In this document: one piece after another, positions 23,913 through 58,636 of the stretch
Layout of the letters: the number at the start of each line of letters is the position of its first letter
Numbering within the stretch: the stretch's first letter is position 1
Source: Neofamilia massiliensis
GTDB lineage: Bacteria > Bacillota > Clostridia > Tissierellales > Peptoniphilaceae
Length of the DNA: 64,000 nucleotides
NCBI RefSeq assembly: GCF_001299475.1
Contig: NZ_CYUJ01000003.1
Location: forward strand, 748,409-812,408
Direction: 5' to 3'
The notes under the pieces: model-generated
Database searches by the model: none
The model's input: only the letters and a program-made list of their open reading frames with translations
What the model was told of the DNA's origin: nothing
Made by a program: the position numbers and the translations under genes

Positions 23913-23938
23913 CGATTAACTTATCTTGTAAGATCCAA

Positions 23939-25492
23939 GGATCACCCCCGCGTGTGCGGGAACTACTGGTCTAGTAAGGACATTTTTGTGTTCATATTAG
24001 GATCACCCCCGCGTGTGCGGGAACTACTGGGACAATTTTATTTTTCAGGAGAAAAGAAGAGGATCACCCCCGCGTGTGCGGGAACTACTCTGGATCATAT
24101 TTAGCTACATTTTCTGATAGGGGATCACCCCCGCGTGTGCGGGAACTACCGTGGTCTATAACTTGTATGCCTATACATTTGCGGATCACCCCCGCGTGTG
24201 CGGGAACTACCTCTTTATCATTTCTGATACTGCATCAGCATAGGGATCACCCCCGCGTGTGCGGGAACTACTGAAACATACACCCCTTTGCTAGACTTAA
24301 GTAAGGATCACCCCCGCGTGTGCGGGAACTACGCTTCTTACGTTAGTTCGTTTTTAGAAAATATAGGATCACCCCCGCGTGTGTGGGAACTACAAATTAG
24401 CTGTTAAACTGTGGATATCTCGCCTAGGATCACCCCCGCGTGTGCGGGAACTACAGAATGGCTAGAGGCCTGGCTAGAAGAGAAACAGGATCACCCCCGC
24501 GTGTGCGGGAACTACCGTCATTAAAGCAGTCTAGGACTTCTTTTTCTAGGATCACCCCCGCGTGTGCGGGAACTACGTTAGACGTTCCAAAAAGTTATAA
24601 CATGAGCAAGGATCACCCCCGCGTGTGCGGGAACTACCATACCTAATTAATTAACGTGCCTAATTTTTGAGGATCACCCCCGCGTGTGCGGGAACTACGT
24701 GCCAAACTGGAATACTTTTTTTGCCTGTTAAGGATCACCCCCGCGTGTGCGGGAACTACTAATCGTGTTAAGGTCAAGTCCTTCCTCGTAACGGGATCAC
24801 CCCCGCGTGTGCGGGAACTACTTTTAATATCATACTTTCTTCCCCAAGCTTCAAGGATCACCCCCGCGTGTGCGGGAACTACCCTTGTTGAAAAGACTGT
24901 GTCTGGATCCAGTGAGGATCACCCCCGCGTGTGCGGGAACTACTCATTGTCTTTTCATTGGCTTTTGTTTCTCCAAGGATCACCCCCGCGTGTGCGGGAA
25001 CTACTGTAGATTCTGAAACTCCAACTAATTCTGCTAAGGATCACCCCCGCGTGTGCGGGAACTACGTTGTTGCCATAAAAATTTAAGCCTCCTTTGTAGG
25101 ATCACCCCCGCGTGTGCGGGAACTACGTATTTAGCTGATAAACTGAAGCTAGCACAAAGGGATCACCCCCGCGTGTGCGGGAACTACCTATCTTTTCATG
25201 ACCAGCTAACTTTTGAATTGGGATCACCCCCGCGTGTGCGGGAACTACGAATACAACGAAAGAATTAAGCTTGCAGAACAAGGATCACCCCCGCGTGTGC
25301 GGGAACTACGAAAATCAAGGTGGATATATTTCTAAAAGTGCAGGATCACCCCCGCGTGTGCGGGAACTACGCAAAAGACCACATTAGTAGGTCGGCCTTA
25401 TCAGGATCACCCCCGCGTGTGCGGGAACTACTTACTGGTGCTAAGGCAGTTGATGCCTTTAACAGGATCACCCCCGCGTGTGCGGGAACTAC
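23939..25492 (-). CRISPR. Type I-E CRISPR array, 26 repeats and 25 spacers
   Basis: The 28-nt repeats start at 23939 and recur every 61 bp; spacers are 33 nt except one of 34 (24760-24793). On the plus strand the repeat begins GGATCACC and ends GGGAACTAC, with the palindrome CCCGC-GTGT-GCGGG region. Read on the minus strand it resembles published type I-E repeats, where the hairpin is followed by an 8-nt handle (GGTGATCC); this sets transcription to the minus strand, the same as the cas genes. All repeats are identical except that at 24366, which has a C-to-T change in the stem. The leader-proximal end is the right end, 29 bp from the cas2 stop. Confidence 0.98.
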
Positions 25493-25521
25493 ACTTAAAG
25501 ATCCTTTATTTTTACAGCTTT

Positions 25522-26415
25522 CTATTTTAGATTTTCTTGAAATTTATTCACTTGCTTTGATAGCTGATAGGTTAGCCTGCTATCTTCTAGGGCTCTATGT
25601 GGCACTTTTTTATTGATCCCATATTCTTTTATTACTGTTTCTAAGCTATAATCTGCTAGATACTTTTTTTCCTTTTTTACATATCTGAGTAGGTCATAGC
25701 TTTTGTTACTTATCCTATCCATTTCCAAGCTTTCTAAGGCCTTGTTTATAAATCTTATATCAAAGTTAATATTATAGCCTACTAGTGGCAAGTCTTTAAT
25801 AAAGTTTTTAAATTCTTCTAAGACGTTTTTTAAAGGCTGGCCATTTTTTTCAAGGTCGGCATCTCTTATACCTGTAAGGTCTGTAATGGTCTTAGGCAAC
25901 TTTTTTCCTATTTTTATTAAAGAGGAAAATTCATATATTTTAGAGTTTTCCTCTTTTATGGCTCCAATTTCTATTATTGAGTTTTGATTTTCGTCTAGGC
26001 CGTCAGTTTCTATGTCGATTACTACGTAGTTTTTCTTTGGGCTTGTTTTTGCTGATGAGAATTTTTCTGCCTTTCTGTATTTTGCTGCCTTACTAAAGCC
26101 AAACTTTAGGTCTGGTCCCTTTTCTTTTTCTATCTCTTCTGCTTTTATAAGGACTAAGGGAATGCCATCAAAGTATATTGGCTCTCTTTGGCAGTTTATT
26201 GTTTGGAATTTATAGCCTATTTCATTTCTATAGTGGTAGCTAAGGGTTGCCTCTCCTTCTTCTAGATTTTCTTGGACTCGTTTCCATAGTTCTTCTCTGA
26301 CTTTACTGTTAAAGTTTCCTACATAAACTCCTGTTGCTATTTCTTGCATCCACTTAGTCAAGTCTCCTCTTAGGGACTTGGGCACTTTTTTTATTGTTAT
26401 TACTGTAAGTGGCAT
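25522..26415 (-). CDS. cas2: Type I-E Cas2 fused to a DEDDh (DnaQ-like) exonuclease
   Basis: 297 residues. Residues 1-95 are Cas2 of the I-E type (MPLTVITIKKVPKSLRGDLTKWMQEIATGVYVG). A basic linker follows, then from about 128 a DnaQ-like exonuclease with all five catalytic residues: D134 and E136 (VIDIETDG), D219 (YNINFD), and H273/D278 (HRALED). Similar fusions occur in Streptococcus thermophilus and Megasphaera, where the nuclease trims prespacers before Cas1-Cas2 integrates them. The coding region ends 29 bp from the first repeat, so any leader must lie mostly within this gene. Confidence 0.96.
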   Translation of the reverse strand: MPLTVITIKKVPKSLRGDLTKWMQEIATGVYVGNFNSKVREELWKRVQENLEEGEATLSYHYRNEIGYKFQTINCQREPIYFDGIPLVLIKAEEIEKEKGPDLKFGFSKAAKYRKAEKFSSAKTSPKKNYVVIDIETDGLDENQNSIIEIGAIKEENSKIYEFSSLIKIGKKLPKTITDLTGIRDADLEKNGQPLKNVLEEFKNFIKDLPLVGYNINFDIRFINKALESLEMDRISNKSYDLLRYVKKEKKYLADYSLETVIKEYGINKKVPHRALEDSRLTYQLSKQVNKFQENLK

Positions 26416-26417
26416 TT

Positions 26418-27973
<1,556 letters not shown>

Positions 27974-27987
<14 letters not shown>

Positions 27988-28732
27988 CTTCCCCTCCTAT
28001 GGCTCCAAAGGCATCGTGGTCTGTGGTCCTATTTTCTTTTGTCTTTTCATCTTCTTCAAGACCTAGGCCTACTAGGTCTATAGTAATTTTCCCCTCGTAT
28101 CTGTAGGCAAATTTTCTTTCTTTTTGAGAAAAAGATATGACCCTATCTTTTCTAAGTTCTTTATAGTTATTTTGAACTAAGTTACTATCTCCATAAATTT
28201 CTAACCTAGTCTTTTCGTCTGAGTTTTTCTTTTTGTACCAACCAGCTGCCTGCCAATTTATATTTTTTAAAGCTTCTACTGGATCTTTATCACTTATTGC
28301 TAATAAAAAATCGTAATTTACTGGCAGAGACCTTCTGCCAAAGTAGGGTTGAAAGTAAGGTGACTTTATGGCTTTAACTAGGCTATCAATAAAGTCAGGG
28401 TCCTTATGGCCTAGGCCTACTAGGAAGACCCCATCTTCTAAATAATAACGGTTAGTTACATAGGTCCTGTTTACTTCTCCATTGTCTTTAAATTTTCTAG
28501 CTATGTGGTAGTCTCTTAAAAGCTCTCCCCTTTGGTCAATTCGCACAGCAAAGTCTAGGTCATTAAGTTTTTTTATTTTTTCGTCTTCGTCTCTTCTGTA
28601 ACCAAGACAGGCTGCTAAAAGGCCTATTATCCCACTTTTTGATGGATAATAATCAGTTCTCCTATATTCAAAGTGAGATTTTGTTCCCCAGGCCTGCAAG
28701 GGTCCAGAGAGTTTTAATACAATAGTTTTCAT
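27974..28732 (-). CDS. cas5e: Cas5e (CasD) Cascade subunit
   Basis: 252 residues from ATG 28732, which is spaced from AGGTGAG; the GTG at 28741 is part of that binding site. It begins KTIVLKLSGPLQAWGTKSHFEYRRTDYYPSKSGIIGLLAACLGYRR, the canonical Cas5 signature. Cas5e caps the 5' handle of crRNA. Its start lies 1 bp after the stop of the frame-shifted cas7e tail. Confidence 0.97.
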
Positions 28733-28733
28733 T

Positions 28734-29818
28734 TTACTCACCTAAAATCTTATCTAGGCTTGCTGCCAACTCTACCTCAAAGTCATCTAATAAGTTATAA
28801 AGGGATATTTTTTCGTCGCCAATTTGGTCTAGGCGTCAATGTCTTCTACAGAAATGTACATGGTAAAAATTTCTGGGTCTGCAAATTTTTCTGCTTTTTT
28901 ATATTCTTCTGCTAGTTTCTTTATTGATTCTTTGCCATAACCAGTATTTGATTTTATAGGCTCTTCAAAGGCAGAAACTAAATTTACTGGCCTGTCTGTC
29001 CTTAGGGTCACTGCTAAAAACTGTGGTAGGGTTTGGTTGGCGAAAGTGTTTATCTTTCCTGTTGGCAGAGACTTGGCAAAGGCTTCTATAAATAATTTAC
29101 TGGCTGCTAGGGTGCTTTCCTTGTCAGCAAGTTGGTGAACTAGTTCATGAAGGGCAATATTTGCATACCTGTAAATTGTTGATGAATTAAATTCAACTGT
29201 CCCAAGCATACCTGCTCCTGCGTTGTCTTCTGGTGCAAGGTCATCTACTGCTGTGAAAAAGTCAAATTCATTTTCAATGGCATGGGTTGAAATAGCGTGG
29301 GCAACTTGGCAAGAAGCATCTTCGTTTAAAGATGGATCATCAGCTACCATTCGTCCAAATAAAGCAATATCTACAGCTGGATTATCTCTTAATATTTCCT
29401 TTAAAGCTTTTGGATCTTTGACTCCTTCAAGGGCAGCTTTTGCTAAATCTTCTGCTTGGTCATTACCTAGGAAGAAAAGAGCCTTGGCTCTCTTGTCCTT
29501 TGTTTTTATTCCAGCTAAGTTTATTATTTCATCTGCTAGGTCCATTGCCTGGTCCATGTTAAGACTTGGATCTTTTTCTAAAATTTTTTCTGCTAGATAT
29601 TTTACAATGTCTAAAGTTCTAACACCAACATTGGCTGCTTGGCTATTGCTATTAAAATATTCTCTAATTGCCCTTTTCCAAGATTGAGATGAAACTCTAG
29701 TTCTTGTAACTCCTCCGTATTGGGCAGTTTTTGGTGAGCCTGTGTCATCTCTATTGATGTTTGATGGTGGCAGGTTTTGGATGGCGTGAATGTCTAGGTA
29801 TAGTCTCTTATTTGTCAT
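28734..29818 (-). CDS. cas7e: Cas7e (Cse4/CasC) Cascade backbone subunit, C-terminus frameshifted
   Basis: The intact frame gives 329 residues and stops at TAG 28829-28831, from 29818. It starts RLYLDIHAIQNLPPSNINRDDTGSPKTAQYGGVTRTRVSSQSWKR, a textbook I-E Cas7. Beyond the stop, a second frame reads LDQIGDEKISLYNLLDDFEV and continues ELAASLDKILGE, ending at TAA 28734-28736, one base before the cas5e ATG. One missing base near 28832-28836 would join them into about 360 residues. Cas7 lines crRNA in six copies, so tail loss may or may not matter. It overlaps cse2 by 11 nt. Confidence 0.93.
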
Positions 29819-30398
29819 TGTCTTCTTCTCCTTTGTCTTTTCTATTTTCTCTATAATATTCTCTGGCCCATGATATAATTACATCATCTTTTTTTCCTCT
29901 TAAAATCCAATAAAGGTCCTTGGCTAAATTTCCGTAGTTTACCTTGCTTTGTGGGGACTTGGCCTTTAAGATTTTTACTAAATGTCTCAGGTGGCCAATA
30001 AATTCTTCATAGGTGCTGGCAGTTAGCATGGCATTAAATCTCCTATCTGCTCCTAAACTGCCGTCTCCTTGTCTAAGGTCCCTTAAAGAAGTTCCCATAT
30101 TAGAAAAACCTTCTTCTTTTCCTATGTTTACTGACTTCTCTTGGCCTTGTTGGTGGAGGGCAAAAAGCTGCAAGGCGGTAATTATCGCTCTTTCTTCATC
30201 ACTTAGATCCCTCTTTTTTGAAAGAAAGTCTTCTGGTAAACTTTCAAAAATTATTGGCCAAATTTCAGGACACTGGCTTAGGTTTTTTCCCATAGAATTT
30301 CTAAGGTTGGCCAAGTCTGCCCTTCCTTGGGGATTTCCTAAAAGAGCAATTCCTCTGTACAAAATTTTACTAGTTACTCCATAAATATCTTTTCCCAT
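29808..30398 (-). CDS. cse2: Cse2 (CasB, Cas11) Cascade small subunit
   Basis: 196 residues, helical. It starts KDIYGVTSKILYRGIALLGNPQGRADLANLRNSMGKNL and has the FALHQQGQ and RRFNAMLTASTYEEFIGHLRHLVKIL blocks common to Gram-positive Cse2. It stabilises the non-target DNA strand in Cascade as a dimer. Confidence 0.95.
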   Translation of the reverse strand: MGKDIYGVTSKILYRGIALLGNPQGRADLANLRNSMGKNLSQCPEIWPIIFESLPEDFLSKKRDLSDEERAIITALQLFALHQQGQEKSVNIGKEEGFSNMGTSLRDLRQGDGSLGADRRFNAMLTASTYEEFIGHLRHLVKILKAKSPQSKVNYGNLAKDLYWILRGKKDDVIISWAREYYRENRKDKGEEDNDK

Positions 30399-30406
30399 TT
30401 TTCCTC

Positions 30407-32089
30407 CTATCCTAATTGTCTTTTGATAAAATAGCTAAAGCTGTTATAAACTGTGGCAATGTTTACAACCTTATCTCCTTCTGTAATACCTGTGTAGTCT
30501 CTGCCAGTAGCTCCACGCATATGACTTTTGCCTTCTTCTATTACAAGGTCTTTTAGCGTATCCTTCCACTCTTTAAATTTTTCACTTTGGCTGTCACTTG
30601 CCCTTATACTTGCCAGCCAGTTTCTAAAAGGCTGGTCTATTTTAAAGTACAAGTCTTCAACACTTGAGTTTACAAAGTCTGTCCCTTGAATATTTCTTAT
30701 TTTTCTAATTGTGTTTACATATCTTCTATAGGTGGACTCTACTACTTCACTTGTTAGGTCAACAGCTTCGTTAATTCTTGCTATCCAACCTTCTTCTGCT
30801 AGGTCAGTTAAAACATAATTGGAAATAACTAACTTATCTAAAATTTCATCTGTAGGAACCCAAGAAGCAGCAGTACCATCATCTTTCATGCTTACCGCAT
30901 TTATAGAAAGTTTATGTTCTGGAAAGTCCATATTATCCTCTAAAAAATTATACCAATCAATAAAGCCTGGTTTAATTTTTTTCTCATCTTCACTTTCAAA
31001 GTTTAAGGTCATTAGACCAAAGGACCTCCACAAGGACTTACCTGCCTGGTGTTTACGAGGAAAATAATCTCCTTGGCCCTTTCTTTCTTCCTTATAAATC
31101 CACAAGGTCATTGGTTCCAAAAAATTATTTTTATGATTAACTTCTACCAGCTTCCCTGACCTAAGAGAGAAGGCATCTGTGTCTACATGGTTTGAATCTA
31201 TATATATACCTCTTGACCAGACAGTATACAGTCCTGCTATATTATCTTGCAAATTTCCACTCAAATTGTTTTCTATAATTTCTCTTGAACTTTGTTCCCA
31301 ACATGGTTTTTGGATATTTAATAATTCACTGCCCTCATAAATTAGACAGTAGTTTAGCATTAAAGTTTCAAAGAGATTATCTCCACCTAAGTAAAGACCT
31401 CCTAAATCATAGACCCACCCCTTAGAATCGTTCTTACTTCCTTTAAGGAATTTAACTTTTTCTCCAGTACCACTATAGGCCTGGTAGCTTAATAACCATC
31501 TGGCTATTTCTTGGTCTGATAGGATTTCCTTGTTATTGTTGGAACTATTTTTATAGGAAAATAAAACTTCCTTGTTGGCACTTTCGGATAATTTTCTATC
31601 AATATTCTTGCCCCATATTGTGCCTTTTATTGTTTTTAGGTCAATAACTTTTTCAATATCCTCCTTTCTGACTTGGAAAAACGGATAGTTTTCATCATAG
31701 AGATAAAACCTGTCCCTCCACTTTTCTAAGTACTTTCCAACAATTTCTGGGAAGCTCCCCCTTTCCCAAAGGTCTGCCCAAGTATCAACTAGGGCATCTT
31801 CATAGGTGTCTGCATCACTTTCGTCAACTTTTTCCAGCTGTCTAAAGTTTTCGTCTAAATAAATTCCCTCATAGACTTGGCCTTCAGAGTCAAATCTTGA
31901 AAAAACTGTGTGGACTACTGCTAGCAATAGTCTTAAAATTACAAAGTCTTGGGTCTTAGTATCTCCTGCTAGGTCCTTGTAGAGATGGGCTTTTTCAAAT
32001 AATTCTTTTAAGCCAACCTCTTCAGTCCTTCCCTTGTCATCAACAATCACCCCTATCCAAGGCTCGTCTAACAAATTAAATCTGCTCAA
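30407..32089 (-). CDS. cse1: Cse1 (CasA, Cas8e) Cascade large subunit
   Basis: 560 residues. The N-terminus RFNLLDEPWIGVI and the internal Trp-rich blocks (GWVYDLGGLYLGGDNLFETLMLNY; LMTLNFESEDEKK) identify Cse1, which recognises the PAM and recruits Cas3. Its start follows the cas3 stop closely, and cse2 follows 8 bp later. Confidence 0.96.
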   Translation of the reverse strand: MSRFNLLDEPWIGVIVDDKGRTEEVGLKELFEKAHLYKDLAGDTKTQDFVILRLLLAVVHTVFSRFDSEGQVYEGIYLDENFRQLEKVDESDADTYEDALVDTWADLWERGSFPEIVGKYLEKWRDRFYLYDENYPFFQVRKEDIEKVIDLKTIKGTIWGKNIDRKLSESANKEVLFSYKNSSNNNKEILSDQEIARWLLSYQAYSGTGEKVKFLKGSKNDSKGWVYDLGGLYLGGDNLFETLMLNYCLIYEGSELLNIQKPCWEQSSREIIENNLSGNLQDNIAGLYTVWSRGIYIDSNHVDTDAFSLRSGKLVEVNHKNNFLEPMTLWIYKEERKGQGDYFPRKHQAGKSLWRSFGLMTLNFESEDEKKIKPGFIDWYNFLEDNMDFPEHKLSINAVSMKDDGTAASWVPTDEILDKLVISNYVLTDLAEEGWIARINEAVDLTSEVVESTYRRYVNTIRKIRNIQGTDFVNSSVEDLYFKIDQPFRNWLASIRASDSQSEKFKEWKDTLKDLVIEEGKSHMRGATGRDYTGITEGDKVVNIATVYNSFSYFIKRQLG

Positions 32090-32093
32090 AGTA

Positions 32094-34880
32094 TCACTCC
32101 TTTCTTCTCACTCCAAATTCTCTGCTATACTCTAACTTTATCCCTTGAAGGCTACATTCGTTATTTTCATCAAAGATTAAGCCCAAAGATCCCTTTAGCC
32201 AAGATGATTCCTGCCAGTCACTTAGGTCTCTAATATTATTTTCTTCTAACTCCCTTATCAACTTGTCTATGCTTACATAAGTAAAGATAGATGGCAGTCT
32301 TAGGGTGTTTTTTGCCAGGTCCTTGGCTATTTCTGTCTTAAAAATTTCCTTAGAAATATCAACTTGGTCTTTAAAGGTCCCGTAGCCTGATCCGATTTTT
32401 TTAAGGGCTATTACTTCAACTGTATCTTTTATATCCCTAACCCTTGCTAGGCCTGCTTCTTCTCCTGTATCTAAAGGAGCCTTGGCCAACCAGCCTATTA
32501 GGTTATCTTTTTTACTTGTTGTCTTTTTTAAAACTGGATCGGAAATTTTAAAAGCTTTTGCCTTGGTCTCTTTTTTCTTTTTCTCACTAATATGAGATTT
32601 TTTAAAATCCAAATAGGTCTCAACTAGGTCTGCTCTTAAATCTATATCTGCATCCAAACTTCCATTTTCGTCAAAGTTATAAACTCTTCCAACTAAAATC
32701 GGAATTTCTCTTGGTAGCTGAATTTTTTCTTCTAAATAATATTGAGTCCTGGCTAGGAGATATGACCCATAAACAGCTGCTGAACCTGCTTCAAAGTCAA
32801 AGTCCTCACTTGTGTCAACCACATAAAACTTTGGCTTTTTAAAAAACTCTGGTCTATTTATTTGGTGCCTGTGAAGCCTACCCATTCTTTGGATAAGTAA
32901 GTCCATAGGAGCCAGCTGGCTAACCATTACATCAAAATCAATGTCCAGTGACTGTTCTATAACTTGGGTCCCAATAATTATTTTCTTCCTTGGCCTGTCA
33001 GCCTTTTTGCCAACTAAGTCTAAAAGATCTTTCTCCTTTTCTGCCCTATCTGTGGCAATAAAGTTTGAGTGTAGTAAAAACACTTGGTCTTCTCCATACT
33101 TTTCTTTAAAGTCCATGGCCAGGTTTTGGGCTTTTTTCACTGTGTTTACTATAATTCCAATATTGCCATCTTCTTTGTAAAGGTCGTCTATTAGGTTTTC
33201 AATTTGCCCCTGGTATTTTATTAAAGCTACTTCTTTACTCTCTTCTTCTTCAAAATCAGCAAAAGTTTTTATCTGACCACCGTCATTGTAGCTAATTAGT
33301 GGATAGGATGTAGTCGATAATTCTTTTGCTGCTTCCATCCTTTGGTCCTTATTTAAAATAACTCCTTTACCCTTTAAATAGGCCTTTATTAATTCAAGTC
33401 TTCTTTTAGGCGGAAGGGTTGCAGATAAAATAATTACAGGAACCTTTAAGGCTCCCAACCAAACTAGGGCCTCGTCTAGGTACTGGCTCATGTAGGCATC
33501 ATAGGCATGGACTTCGTCTATGACTACAACTTTCTTGCTAAATCCTAGGTGTCTTAGGGCCAGGTGTTTTTGTTTTAGGGCCATCATAAGTATTTGGTCT
33601 ACAGTTCCAACTACAAAGTCATCTAAGGCAGAAGTCTTTTTACCTGCAAACCATTCATTTACGATAACGTTGTCCTTGGTATCCTTATCGTCTTGGTTTA
33701 TATGGTTTGCTAGACTAGAGAAAACTTCGTTTAAAGCTGCCTTGCCATGGTTAAGCCTGATGCCAAACTTGTCTTCGTCATCATAGTAGCCCCATTCTTC
33801 CCTATAAAATTCTAGCATATTGCTTAGCCAGTCATTTATTCTAGGGAAAATTCCATTTGATGTAGCCTGGGTTGGCAGACCAAAATAAAGACCAGATGCT
33901 CCAAGCTTATATGCCAACTGCTCTGCCCCAATTAAGGCCGCTTCAGTTTTGCCCTTGCCCATAGCTGCTTCTACAATAAAAATTTGAGAATCGTCCTTGC
34001 TTTCAATTAGATCAAAAAATCCTTTTTGGAAATTATTAGGACTTGCAAAGCCAAATCTGGATTTATAGGCGAGCTCAGCTTGGCTCAAGTCTTCAGCTTC
34101 CCATCTGGCAGTTTTTTTCCATTTTTCAAAGGCCCTTTGATAACGAAGGTCTGAATTCTCTACAGCAAATTCTTCAAGGTCAATTAGAGGAAAATAATTT
34201 TCATTAGATGCTATCCAGTCTGCCATAATAATTAGGCCAGCTAAAATAACCTGGGCTGGCTGAGAAATATTTTCAAAGTCTTCAGGACCTGAAAAATTCC
34301 CCTGAGCCAAAGCCCAAGCTAATATTTGCTCCTGCTGGTCTGCCCATTTTTTACAAAGGTCTGTATCCTTAGGAAGGTCAGATTGGTAGTAGTTTTTCTT
34401 ATAGGATTTTTGATTTTTTACTTCTTTTATGTCGTCTACTGGTAGGCCGTGGTGGCTACCAACTATTGTGGAAATTTGGTCTGGAAACCCAGACTTGAAT
34501 AATATGTACTGACCAGCCAAGGCGTGTTTGGTTCTCTTGCCATCAGCTGTAAATAAAGATAGGTTTTCAAAGCCTGAACTTTCTAATCTAGAAATTAAAA
34601 ATTCATCAAGGTCTCCTCCTTGGTAGAAAAAACTTTTTGAGCATTGAAAAACTGGAGTTGCCTTGCCTAGGTCGTGAATGGCAGCTAAAAATAAGGCAAG
34701 GTCTCTGCCTCTAAATTTAGTCGCCTGATCAATTAAATCTCTCTGCCCTTGGCTAAGCCAATGGTCCCACAAAAGGCCTGCTATGTTTTTTGTATCTTCC
34801 AAATGCTGGTAAAGTGGCAACCAAGACCCTGTCACTTGGCCTTGCTTTTTCTTTGCCCAAAGAGCCTTATTTATTTCCAT
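32094..34880 (-). CDS. cas3: Cas3 HD-nuclease/helicase
   Basis: 928 residues. The N-terminal HD nuclease has H69-D70 in FLAAIHDLGKATPVFQ and a further His (KHALAGQ). The helicase has Walker A (AAMGKGKTEAAL), DEVH (VVIDEVHAYDAYM), SAT (ILSATLPP) and motif VI (QRMGRLHRH). It nicks and degrades target DNA once recruited by Cse1. It is the first gene of the eight-gene operon; GGAGG precedes the ATG and a promoter lies upstream. Confidence 0.97.
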   Translation of the reverse strand: MEINKALWAKKKQGQVTGSWLPLYQHLEDTKNIAGLLWDHWLSQGQRDLIDQATKFRGRDLALFLAAIHDLGKATPVFQCSKSFFYQGGDLDEFLISRLESSGFENLSLFTADGKRTKHALAGQYILFKSGFPDQISTIVGSHHGLPVDDIKEVKNQKSYKKNYYQSDLPKDTDLCKKWADQQEQILAWALAQGNFSGPEDFENISQPAQVILAGLIIMADWIASNENYFPLIDLEEFAVENSDLRYQRAFEKWKKTARWEAEDLSQAELAYKSRFGFASPNNFQKGFFDLIESKDDSQIFIVEAAMGKGKTEAALIGAEQLAYKLGASGLYFGLPTQATSNGIFPRINDWLSNMLEFYREEWGYYDDEDKFGIRLNHGKAALNEVFSSLANHINQDDKDTKDNVIVNEWFAGKKTSALDDFVVGTVDQILMMALKQKHLALRHLGFSKKVVVIDEVHAYDAYMSQYLDEALVWLGALKVPVIILSATLPPKRRLELIKAYLKGKGVILNKDQRMEAAKELSTTSYPLISYNDGGQIKTFADFEEEESKEVALIKYQGQIENLIDDLYKEDGNIGIIVNTVKKAQNLAMDFKEKYGEDQVFLLHSNFIATDRAEKEKDLLDLVGKKADRPRKKIIIGTQVIEQSLDIDFDVMVSQLAPMDLLIQRMGRLHRHQINRPEFFKKPKFYVVDTSEDFDFEAGSAAVYGSYLLARTQYYLEEKIQLPREIPILVGRVYNFDENGSLDADIDLRADLVETYLDFKKSHISEKKKKETKAKAFKISDPVLKKTTSKKDNLIGWLAKAPLDTGEEAGLARVRDIKDTVEVIALKKIGSGYGTFKDQVDISKEIFKTEIAKDLAKNTLRLPSIFTYVSIDKLIRELEENNIRDLSDWQESSWLKGSLGLIFDENNECSLQGIKLEYSREFGVRRKE

Positions 34881-55629: not shown

Positions 55630-57234
55630 CTAATTGTTGGCCCTGTGTAAGGCTGCTGCCTTAACGAAGCCTTTAAAAAGTGGATGGATATTTGTCGGCC
55701 TATTTCTATATTCTGGGAAGAAGGAACAAGCTAAATAAAAGTCCAAGTCCTTGTGTTCAATTATTTCAACAAGACCTAGGTCTTCATTTACTCCAGCCAT
55801 TACAAGTCCAGCTCCTTCAAAGTCTTTTTCGTAAGTCCTATTAAGCTCTAACCTGTGATAGTGACGTTCTTCAACTTGGTCTAGGTTATAAAGTTTTTGG
55901 ACCATAGTTCCTTCGACTAAATTACAAGTGTAGTTGCCTAGTCTTTCTCTGCCTTGAGGATCTAGAGAGCCTTCTGGAGATACTACATCTAAAACTGGAT
56001 ACTTAGTGTTATTGTCCATTTGAGTTGAGTCTGCCCCTTCAAAGCCTAAAACATTTCTAGCAATTTCAATTAGAGAAATATTAAAGCCAAGGCCGATGCC
56101 AAAGTATGGAAGATTTTCTTCTCTGGCATATTTAGCAGCTAAAAGTAGGCCTTCATTGCCTCTTTTACCTGAACCATTTGGCACAACTAGGCCGTCAAGG
56201 CCAGCAAATTTTTCCACATAGTTGTCTTCGTTAACTTCTTCTGATTTTATTAATTCTATGTCTACCCTATAGCCAGAATCATAGCCTGCATCCTTTAGTG
56301 AGTTCATTACAGATAGGTAGGCATCTGGTAGTTCTGTGTACTTGCCTACTAGGCCAATAGTAAGTGGAAGGTTGGCGTTTTTAAACTTAGTTACCATTTC
56401 GTCCCACTCTGTGCACTTGTCGCCTTTTTCTTCTAGGTGAAGTTTTTTCATTATATATTCTGCTAAGCCCTGTTCTTCAAGACTAAGTGGAACTTCATAA
56501 ATTAGGTCTACGTTTTTTGACTGAACAATGGCCTCAGCTGGCACGTCACAGAAAAGGGAAATTTTTTCCTTTAGGTCATCTGTAAGTAAGCCGTCTGACC
56601 TGGCAATAATTACGTCAGTTTTTATTCCCAGACTCATTAATTCCTTATAAGAGTGTTGGGTAGGTTTAGTCTTTAATTCAGTTGTTCCAGGAACTGCTGG
56701 AACTAAAGTTGTGTGAATAAATAAGACGTCATCTCTCTTGTTTTCAGCGTGGATTTGTCTAATAGCTTCTAAAAATGGTAGAGATTCTATATCCCCAACT
56801 GTTCCACCAATTTCTGTAATTATAATATCTGCTCCAGATTGTTTTTGGGCAGAATAAACTGCGTTTTTTATTTCGTCAGTAATGTGAGGAATAACTTGGA
56901 CAGTGGCGCCGTTATAGTCTCCTCTTTTTTCTTTTTTTAGGACGCTGTCGTAGATCCTACCTGTAGTCACTGAAGATTTTTGAGTAAGTTCTACGTCTAT
57001 AAATCTTTCATAGTGGCCTAGGTCTAGGTCTGTCTTTGCTCCGTCCTTGGTTACGAAAACCTCTCCGTGTTGGTAAGGGCTTAAAAGTCCAGGGTCAACA
57101 TTTAAGTAGGGATCGAATTTTTGCATAAAAACAGAATAGCCCCTATCTTTTAATAATCTACCAATACTCGCTGCTGAAATTCCCTTGCCTATGCCACTAA
57201 CTACTCCACCAGTGACAAATATATACTTTGACAT
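55630..57234 (-). CDS. pyrG: CTP synthase with degenerate glutaminase domain
   Basis: 534 residues, full length. The N-terminal amidoligase is normal: YIFVTGGVVSGIGKGI (P-loop), QKFDPYLNVDPG, SPYQHGEVFV, DLGHYERFID. The C-terminal class-I glutaminase domain has lost its active site: the family motif GICLG reads GIGLG (Gly381 in place of the nucleophile Cys, codon GGC at 56092-56094), PGGFG reads PNGSG, and FHPE reads FFPE (Phe506 for His, codon 55717-55719). Glu508 is kept. The enzyme should still make CTP from UTP but with free ammonia rather than glutamine. AGGAGG precedes the ATG. Confidence 0.95.
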   Translation of the reverse strand: MSKYIFVTGGVVSGIGKGISAASIGRLLKDRGYSVFMQKFDPYLNVDPGLLSPYQHGEVFVTKDGAKTDLDLGHYERFIDVELTQKSSVTTGRIYDSVLKKEKRGDYNGATVQVIPHITDEIKNAVYSAQKQSGADIIITEIGGTVGDIESLPFLEAIRQIHAENKRDDVLFIHTTLVPAVPGTTELKTKPTQHSYKELMSLGIKTDVIIARSDGLLTDDLKEKISLFCDVPAEAIVQSKNVDLIYEVPLSLEEQGLAEYIMKKLHLEEKGDKCTEWDEMVTKFKNANLPLTIGLVGKYTELPDAYLSVMNSLKDAGYDSGYRVDIELIKSEEVNEDNYVEKFAGLDGLVVPNGSGKRGNEGLLLAAKYAREENLPYFGIGLGFNISLIEIARNVLGFEGADSTQMDNNTKYPVLDVVSPEGSLDPQGRERLGNYTCNLVEGTMVQKLYNLDQVEERHYHRLELNRTYEKDFEGAGLVMAGVNEDLGLVEIIEHKDLDFYLACSFFPEYRNRPTNIHPLFKGFVKAAALHRANN

Positions 57235-57440
57235 TTTTCCTCCTTATCAACTTACTTTTCTTTAACACTAATAATCTTTATTATAACACAGCTTGGAGTC
57301 TGGGTAAAAATTTTTCTAGCTAAAAGTAAAAAAAGTTTTTAAAAGAGTAAGGGAACTGACCTTGGTTTAAAAGCTTCGCCGTTTGCAAAATGGACTTCTA
57401 CGCAAAGTCTTTCTCTTTAACTAACTAATCAACAACCTCA

Positions 57441-57483
57441 GGAGGAGGCTAAGGGAGTCAGATTCTCCCTCATCGCCTCCTCC
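57441..57483 (+). ncRNA. Nested GC-rich hairpin, possible structured RNA
   Basis: Outer stem GGAGGAGGC / GCCTCCTCC (9 bp, all paired), inner stem GGGAG / CTCCC with a 7-base loop. It has no T run, so it is not a simple terminator. Whether it is transcribed is unknown. Confidence 0.35.
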
Positions 57484-57999
57484 CGAGACCCTCCTCCCCT
57501 TTCACCCTAAACTGTTCCTGCGGAAAGCTGCTTCGCCGTTGGCAAAGTCTTTTTCGGAAAATAATTCTTTTTTATAACCTGCTAATTGTTGTTACTTTTT
57601 ACAAACCTCATCTTTTATAATAATATGAGTTTTAGTTTTTAAAAAGCGATAGCTCCAATAACTTTTAAAAATGGTATTAAGCATTGAGTTGAAATTGTTT
57701 TTGTTAACACGAAGTCCAGCCCTCTGCAAGAGCTCTACAGGGTGTAAGAAGGGTTGGGGTTTGGTTGGAAGCGACCATGAGGGAGTTTGAGCTTCCCTTC
57801 GTTCCCTTCCCCAAGAGCTGGAAGTCAGAGAAAAGAAAGAAAAAGTAATTAAGCAACAATAAAGTTATCTAACGGCGACAGCCACCACAGATTGTTAATG
57901 AAACAGAAAGATTAATGAGCAATATAATTTTTGCAAATGGCGAAGCTGAATTATCAGTAAGCTGATCAGTTGTAAAAATCTATCTCCATTATAAAAAAT

Positions 58000-58025
58000 G
58001 GGGACGCACATAAATGAACGTCCCC
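58000..58025. repeat. REP-like hairpin, short form, covarying
   Basis: GGGGACG-N12-CGTCCCC with the same loop as at 44616, but the A-T pair next to the loop has become G-C: a compensatory change that keeps the stem. Confidence 0.85.
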
Positions 58026-58054
58026 GAACTGTTGAATTCCAAAAAATTGAAATT

Positions 58055-58636
58055 CTATTTTAAATTTTTTAAATCTTCTTGATAATTTAAATTTTGAAAA
58101 ATCTTTAAGGCTGGATCAAATTTCTGAACCTGATCTTTAGAAATTTTTATAAAGTCATTTTCCTCAATTAGACTTTGGATCTTCAAATCTCTATTCTCTA
58201 ATTTCTCTTCGAGAATAGGAATTAAATCCTTAGAATAAAGGCCAGCCATCGGTTCAATAAAACCATCGTGGGCCGTTACAAGCCCAAGGGCGTTAGACTT
58301 TTCAAAGATTTGAACTATATAAGAAATATAGCCGTCATTAATATTAGGCATATCACAAGCAATAACAAAGGAGCCTTGCGACCCAGCATGCTCTAATCCT
58401 GCGTGGATGCCTGCCAAGGGCCCTAGGCCCTTATAGTAGTCCTGGCAAAGAGTGTAGCCCCTATCCCTATAAATGTCTGGAGTCCTTGTCACTACAATAA
58501 TTTGAGAAAAGTGCCTTTGCAGAATTTCTGCCTGGTAGTCGACAATTAATTTCCCGTCAATTTTTATTTCTTGCTTGTCAAAGCCCATCCGCCTTGACCT
58601 GCCTCCTGCTAGGATTATTCCTGTGTCTACTTTCAC
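58055..58636 (-). CDS. mobA: Molybdenum cofactor guanylyltransferase
   Basis: 193 residues. GIILAGGRSRRMGFDKQEI is the MobA nucleotide-binding loop, with GPLAGIHAGLEHA and VIACDMPNI following. It adds GMP to molybdopterin to make the bis-MGD cofactor required by the catalytic subunit encoded upstream. GTG start with AGGAG six bases before it; the start follows the chaperone stop directly. Confidence 0.94.
   Translation of the reverse strand: MKVDTGIILAGGRSRRMGFDKQEIKIDGKLIVDYQAEILQRHFSQIIVVTRTPDIYRDRGYTLCQDYYKGLGPLAGIHAGLEHAGSQGSFVIACDMPNINDGYISYIVQIFEKSNALGLVTAHDGFIEPMAGLYSKDLIPILEEKLENRDLKIQSLIEENDFIKISKDQVQKFDPALKIFQNLNYQEDLKNLK

Follow-up and report, generated by a model that had tools for sequence, protein, structure and literature searches.

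Introduction

In textbook nucleotide synthesis, glutamine is the nitrogen source, and glutaminase domains exclude free ammonia from the reaction. In Escherichia coli CTP synthase (CTPS, the product of pyrG), outside ammonia is thought to enter via the GTP cleft and GTP inhibits the use of ammonia, while a G352P variant is reported to have undetectable glutamine-dependent activity and almost full activity with NH4Cl (PMC9138612); CTPS modified by DON is still able to use NH4+ (PMC11211670). Among other amidotransferases, in human CPS1 the catalytic Cys is replaced by Ser (PMC4655335, PMC7657897), and single-domain NAD synthetase NadE is considered ancestral and has been called only the second known instance of direct ammonia use in vivo, in a paper whose Table 1 lists pyrG and guaA as glutaminase-fused in 100% of ~800 and ~730 genomes, respectively (PMC3376133). 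Our literature search, the coverage of which left out most subscription journals and bioRxiv preprints, found no published PyrG or GuaA with a dead glutaminase. Here we report a computational analysis of such a PyrG, encoded in a stretch of 64,000 nucleotides from Neofamilia massiliensis that we call the window, and of its relatives.

Results

The window encodes a CTP synthase with the following layout.

55630..57234, minus strand: pyrG, full-length CTP synthase of 534 aa (TIGR00337, 701 bits; cut-off 462.75)
56434..57228, minus strand: amidoligase domain CTP_synth_N, residues 3-267 (PF06418, 409 bits)
55660..56331, minus strand: glutaminase domain of the class I GATase type, residues 302-525; triad lost, fold retained
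56167..56181, minus strand: altered oxyanion loop, residues 352-356, PNGSG (Asn and Ser for E. coli G351 and F353)
56092..56094, minus strand: codon 381, GGC, Gly at the nucleophile position (E. coli Cys379)
55717..55719, minus strand: codon 506, TTC, Phe at the position of the triad His (E. coli His515)
55711..55713, minus strand: triad Glu codon 508, GAA, Glu, retained (E. coli Glu517)

The first-pass annotation had described a full-length CTP synthase from which the catalytic Cys and His are gone and whose amidoligase half keeps its motifs, and both statements are borne out. The protein fails the test for the Cys-His-Glu triad of class I glutaminases (Gly381, Phe506, Glu508), and in its oxyanion loop codons 353 (AAT, Asn) and 355 (TCA, Ser) face E. 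coli Gly351 and Phe353. The amidoligase half retains every ATP/UTP residue that we could name (those facing E. coli K18, K40, D72, E140 and K223) as well as the gate residues P54, H57 and V60 (E. coli numbering). Since the TIGR00337 score exceeds its cut-off despite the lost triad, automatic annotation would label this PyrG glutamine hydrolysing, a name that it indeed still carries and that should be read as a warning. A second complete pyrG, which would have refuted the proposal of the first-pass annotation, was not found, because a profile search of the whole genome (1.92 Mb in 3 contigs, completeness rating 100%) gave a single CTP_synth_N match, the gene in the window. The selenoprotein-type family NF004836 (CTP synthase C-terminal region-related) was considered and ruled out, at 110.5 bits against a curated cut-off of 260.

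The neighbours of pyrG are a response regulator and, beyond an upstream gap of ~820 bp, a mobA-like gene, with no adjoining glutaminase gene. Relatives carry a glutamine synthetase (GS) of ~700 aa adjoining pyrG. The gap itself (57235-58054) is gene-free and contains short repeats, e.g. CGGCGAAGC. A GS fossil near pyrG was sought by tblastn of the relatives' upstream proteins against 57235-58060 and rejected, as only chance matches were returned (best E 1.5). Elsewhere, the window holds a type I-E CRISPR-Cas system (23930-25493 and 25522-34880, with Cas1e, Cse1, Cas7/Cse4 and Cas3) whose array has a 61-bp repeat-spacer unit in 24 or more in-register copies. In its Cas2e ORF (25522-26415, 297 aa) the first part matches Cas2e and the remainder a DnaQ-type 3'-5' exonuclease, which makes the ORF a Cas2-exonuclease fusion. 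A 340-aa ORF at 586-1608 on the minus strand joins ribonuclease HII to a YraN-family domain.

That these changes stem from a sequencing or assembly error can hardly be maintained, as the first-pass annotation had already judged. A separate genome of the same genus (G001, locus L003) has a PyrG 87% identical to that of the window with the same GIGLG, FFPE and PNGSG, and the affected codons are neither near-stops nor homopolymers. With this second genome, the other refuter in the first-pass annotation that is open to computation, Cys and His at these codons, did not hold either. In a third genome of this genus, with a completeness rating of only 64%, there was no PyrG match. For a wider comparison, 80 PyrG loci from 79 genomes of the family were aligned with 80 named loci from public genomes. 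Cys, His and Glu are all present in 148 of the 161 PyrG loci examined, a count in which the window gene was entered twice (L001, L002), L069 and L104 are one contig, and L064 stops short of the triad His position. Four loci with stops or partial frames were left out before sites were counted, and columns with at least 97% identity among 131 distinct Cys-bearing sequences were defined as near-invariant. There are 147 such columns, of which the amidoligase has 92 and the glutaminase 55. The window PyrG deviates at 17 of them, 13/55 in the glutaminase vs 4/92 in the amidoligase (Fisher p 8e-4), and the imbalance remains when Cys379 and His515, which had prompted the search, are excluded (11/53 vs 4/92, p 0.003). 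By comparison, the 131 Cys-bearing PyrGs deviate at a mean of 0.34 near-invariant glutaminase sites, with a maximum of 5. The glutamine pocket is among the regions affected, with residues facing E. coli G351, F353, Q383 and E403 all altered.

The few deviations in the amidoligase are concentrated as well, all four of them corresponding to E. coli T51, M52, E68 and R104. The affected residues, together with one in the glutaminase half, are listed here with the roles given for them in PMC9138612, a review that assigns T51, M52, E68 and the 104-110 loop to the GTP site or the ammonia tunnel.

57082..57087, minus strand: residues 50-51, Leu-Leu (E. coli T51 and M52; GTP site, ammonia-tunnel loop)
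57034..57036, minus strand: residue 67, Lys (E. coli E68; GTP purine contact)
56926..56928, minus strand: residue 103, Lys (E. coli R104; 104-110 loop, GTP site)
55858..55860, minus strand: residue 459, Tyr (E. coli R468; GTP purine contact)

All four amidoligase changes (4/4) fall among the 9 near-invariant GTP/tunnel columns (hypergeometric 4.5e-5), with the caveat that this set of columns was drawn from the review's list after the changes had been seen. T438, in the 429-440 loop, is altered too. The window PyrG fails the test for the GTP allosteric site in part, with T51, M52, E68, R104, T438 and R468 changed, and since R356, G357 and R470 are retained, the site is altered rather than erased. 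These data bear on the possibility that the dead domain is a sensor of glutamine or nucleotides that regulates the amidoligase. Such a role would fit a domain that is whole and, as described below, under purifying selection, but the residues of the glutamine pocket and of the GTP site are themselves among those altered, which makes it very unlikely.

Comparison of the window genome (G000) with G001 by NG86 gave a dN/dS of 0.035 for the amidoligase, indicating strong purifying selection, and of 0.138 for the glutaminase domain, indicating purifying selection there too, the latter value resting on NG86 only because a second method yielded none. The glutaminase nevertheless evolves fast relative to the amidoligase, with a dN ratio of 5.8 against a median of 2.6 in intact within-genus pairs, of which only 2/150 (pairs that are not independent) reach such a ratio. 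This disparity would be expected if pyrG were decaying while CTP came from salvage, and the family can manage without PyrG, only 79 of its 130 genomes having the gene. We nonetheless consider decay quite unlikely, because the open frames are full-length in both genomes, dN/dS is low in both domains, no named ATP/UTP or gate residue has been lost, and glutaminase dN/dS equals or exceeds that of the window pair in 25/98 intact pairs. An AF2 model of the window PyrG (mean pLDDT 88.8, pTM 0.88) meets the test for the two-domain fold, its best PDB match being E. coli CTPS (8i9o, TM 0.95), with loops 46-50 and 420-427 unreliable, the first of which touches the T51 site.

Enzymes that make or use glutamine were also sought elsewhere in the genome. 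No match was found in it for GS or for GATase_6 (GlmS, PurF), while the same searches were positive in 14/14 control genomes in each case. Class I GATase matches number three: PyrG, GuaA and a 254-aa protein of the Peptidase_C26 family (PF07722, E 2.5e-58). In GuaA, AINYAIE stands at the place of GLCYGMQ in intact relatives, with Asn replacing the Cys, and the His-Pro-Glu is retained. As far as class I and class II searches can tell, no live amidotransferase is left in this genome, PyrG and GuaA both being dead at the nucleophile. GatB was found, and glutaminyl-tRNA is therefore probably formed by transamidation, which is an inference. That the organism ferments amino acids is likewise inferred, from weak context only (the window encodes peptidases and a transporter of the AbgT type). 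Could PyrG still depend on glutamine through a separate glutaminase that acts in trans and supplies it with ammonia? The 254-aa protein has both its Cys (GICRGMQ) and an HPE-type motif intact, and the scope of our search excluded nitrilase-type and amidase-type glutaminases. However, Peptidase_C26 is a family of stand-alone hydrolases, no glutaminase gene adjoins pyrG and the genome has no GS match, and we consider this explanation unlikely.

The fate of PyrG in the window is not an isolated case. We surveyed a family set of 130 genomes (Peptoniphilaceae or their GTDB family), of which 74 have GS, mostly as the ~700-aa protein and often adjoining pyrG. The PyrG Cys is lost in 9 of the 25 GS-lacking genomes with pyrG vs none of the 54 GS-bearing ones (p 1e-5). 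Among the nine, G065 retains HPE, and its loss looks recent, while G061 also has an intact second PyrG. In this MAG (L069/L104, L065), the intact PyrG groups with Erysipelothrix-like sequences and the triad-dead one is native to the family tree; possibly, a replacement is in progress. For GuaA, 110 loci were retrieved and 109 classed, one 66-aa fragment being left out: 91 are intact, 4 have the Cys replaced (in G000, G044, G073 and G077), 13 have the glutaminase domain gone or cut, and 1 is split in two frames. The split gene (L261, in G094) was not counted and is either a broken gene or the result of misassembly. In GuaA of G061 and of G002, which is of the window's genus, the first 60-odd residues are kept and the catalytic middle is deleted. 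Overall, the glutaminase of PyrG or GuaA is dead in 20/56 GS-lacking vs 0/74 GS-bearing genomes (p 5e-9). Neither protein was read in 12 GS-bearing and 5 GS-lacking genomes, and restriction to those actually read gives 20/51 vs 0/62 (p 1e-8).

Because genomes are related, these p-values are too strong; counting instead the ~7 lineages with loss, all GS-lacking, gives a rough figure of (56/130)^7 = 0.003. Genera g4 and g8 contain both kinds of genome, and there too the dead ones are GS-lacking. Absence of GS is not sufficient for loss, since in 36 of the 56 genomes without GS neither a dead PyrG nor a dead GuaA is among the proteins read. On a tree of the amidoligase domain, the dead label needs five changes, all five forced by well-supported branches, with origins in the window genus, G065, the second copy of G061, the clade g11/g21/g25/g30, and L149, which lies outside the family. 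Judging from these sequences, there are at least four origins of PyrG glutaminase loss within the family. The tree of the GuaA synthetase likewise needs five changes, four of them forced, and 11 proteins consisting of the synthetase alone group together in a single clade, possibly through one old event or as a transferred form. T51 is a recurrent casualty, changed in 9/10 triad-dead PyrGs (4/5 origins) vs 2/145 Cys-bearing ones, and one of these two belongs to G073, whose GuaA is dead. With GuaA, CarA and PurF of that genome all triad-dead, this PyrG (L045), which has its Cys intact and Val for T51, perhaps represents an early stage of conversion. We thus observe, in sequence, glutaminase losses, their recurrence, and in this family a tie between loss in PyrG or GuaA and a missing GS. 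As a separate matter, 51/130 family genomes, including 31/31 of genus g3 and many rated 97-99% complete, have no PyrG match beyond a fragment and should need external cytidine or another route to CTP.

Other amidotransferases follow this pattern less strictly. In the genomes with dead glutaminases, all 12 GATase_6 matches were read: Cys is missing from PurF in 7/7 and from GlmS in G061 and G078, and is kept in GlmS of G077 and the AsnB-like proteins of G090 and G091. CarA has Gly at the Cys site in the 4/4 read (G061, G063, G073, G091). The PabA/TrpG-like protein of G079 and the class I GATase of 190 aa in G044 are intact, as is the glutaminase motif inside a frameshifted gene of G090; class I matches of 230-290 aa were not individually read. 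In GS-bearing controls, GlmS is intact in 12/12, while PurF is intact in 7/10 and dead in 3/10 (G080, G126, G059), which suggests that PurF sheds its glutaminase more readily. A strict rule that glutaminase death requires GS loss had to be rejected, both on these PurFs and because its advance prediction failed for L149, a Tidjanibacter MAG in which Ala replaces the PyrG Cys and the genome has two GS matches. The rule is limited to PyrG and GuaA in the family. As for L149, the alternatives are a misbinned contig and a link to GS that does not hold generally.

Discussion

The first-pass annotation had predicted an ammonia-dependent CTP synthase, and this stands as the best reading, activity with ammonia being inferred in the absence of enzyme data. 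We consider it very probable, on the evidence of sequence, that the window PyrG is a working CTP synthase that uses free ammonia, with a pseudo-glutaminase half and with its GTP control inferred to be lost. From its retained residues, the amidoligase half would phosphorylate UTP and aminate it as usual. By known triad chemistry, the other half should be unable to hydrolyse glutamine, with Cys and His gone and the oxyanion loop altered, and would persist as part of the folded tetramer. The altered GTP-activator site would leave the entry open to outside ammonia, a change that fits because in the E. coli enzyme GTP acts in glutamine hydrolysis and keeps outside ammonia from entering. In a cell without GS and with much ammonia, glutaminase and GTP activation would bring no gain, and GTP would hinder.

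The window PyrG would then be one instance of a recurrent change in the family, in which GS-lacking genomes strip PyrG, GuaA and sometimes CarA, PurF and GlmS of their glutaminases. With the sole PyrG and the GuaA of this genome dead, and repeated losses in GS-lacking relatives, nucleotides are probably built from free ammonia. We therefore favour, with somewhat less assurance, a broader account in which this lineage gave up glutamine for nucleotide amides: after loss of GS, an order of events that is inferred, PyrG, GuaA, CarA, PurF and GlmS would repeatedly have lost their glutaminases, by point change or domain loss, and run on ammonia, the window PyrG also shedding GTP control. If this is true, the family offers repeated natural conversions of several amidotransferases together with their intermediates, from intact proteins through loss of the Cys and deletion of half the domain to its complete absence, and would allow a comparative test of what ammonia channelling, and GTP control in CTP synthase, are worth. 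Nucleotide synthesis in such bacteria is also predicted to be resistant to glutamine analogues such as DON.

Comparison with known systems places this enzyme as follows. It shares domain order, length, fold, and amidoligase and gate residues with E. coli PyrG (TIGR00337, PDB 1s1m, 8i9o), and differs from it in lacking the triad Cys and His and in its altered oxyanion loop and GTP site. The two-subunit archaeal GMP synthetase resembles the 11 family genomes whose GuaA is a separate synthetase protein; in those genomes, no free GuaA-type glutaminase partner was found among the class I matches read, some being unread. Single-domain NadE is similarly an amidotransferase supplied with free ammonia in vivo (PMC3376133), while the window PyrG once had a glutaminase and then lost it. 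By analogy, the nearest parallel is human CPS1, since the vertebrate enzyme also combines ammonia dependence with a glutaminase domain that is whole but inactive (PMC4655335, PMC7657897). CPS1 is nonetheless another enzyme, which serves ammonia disposal rather than biosynthesis in the absence of GS, and in the window genome several enzymes are affected.
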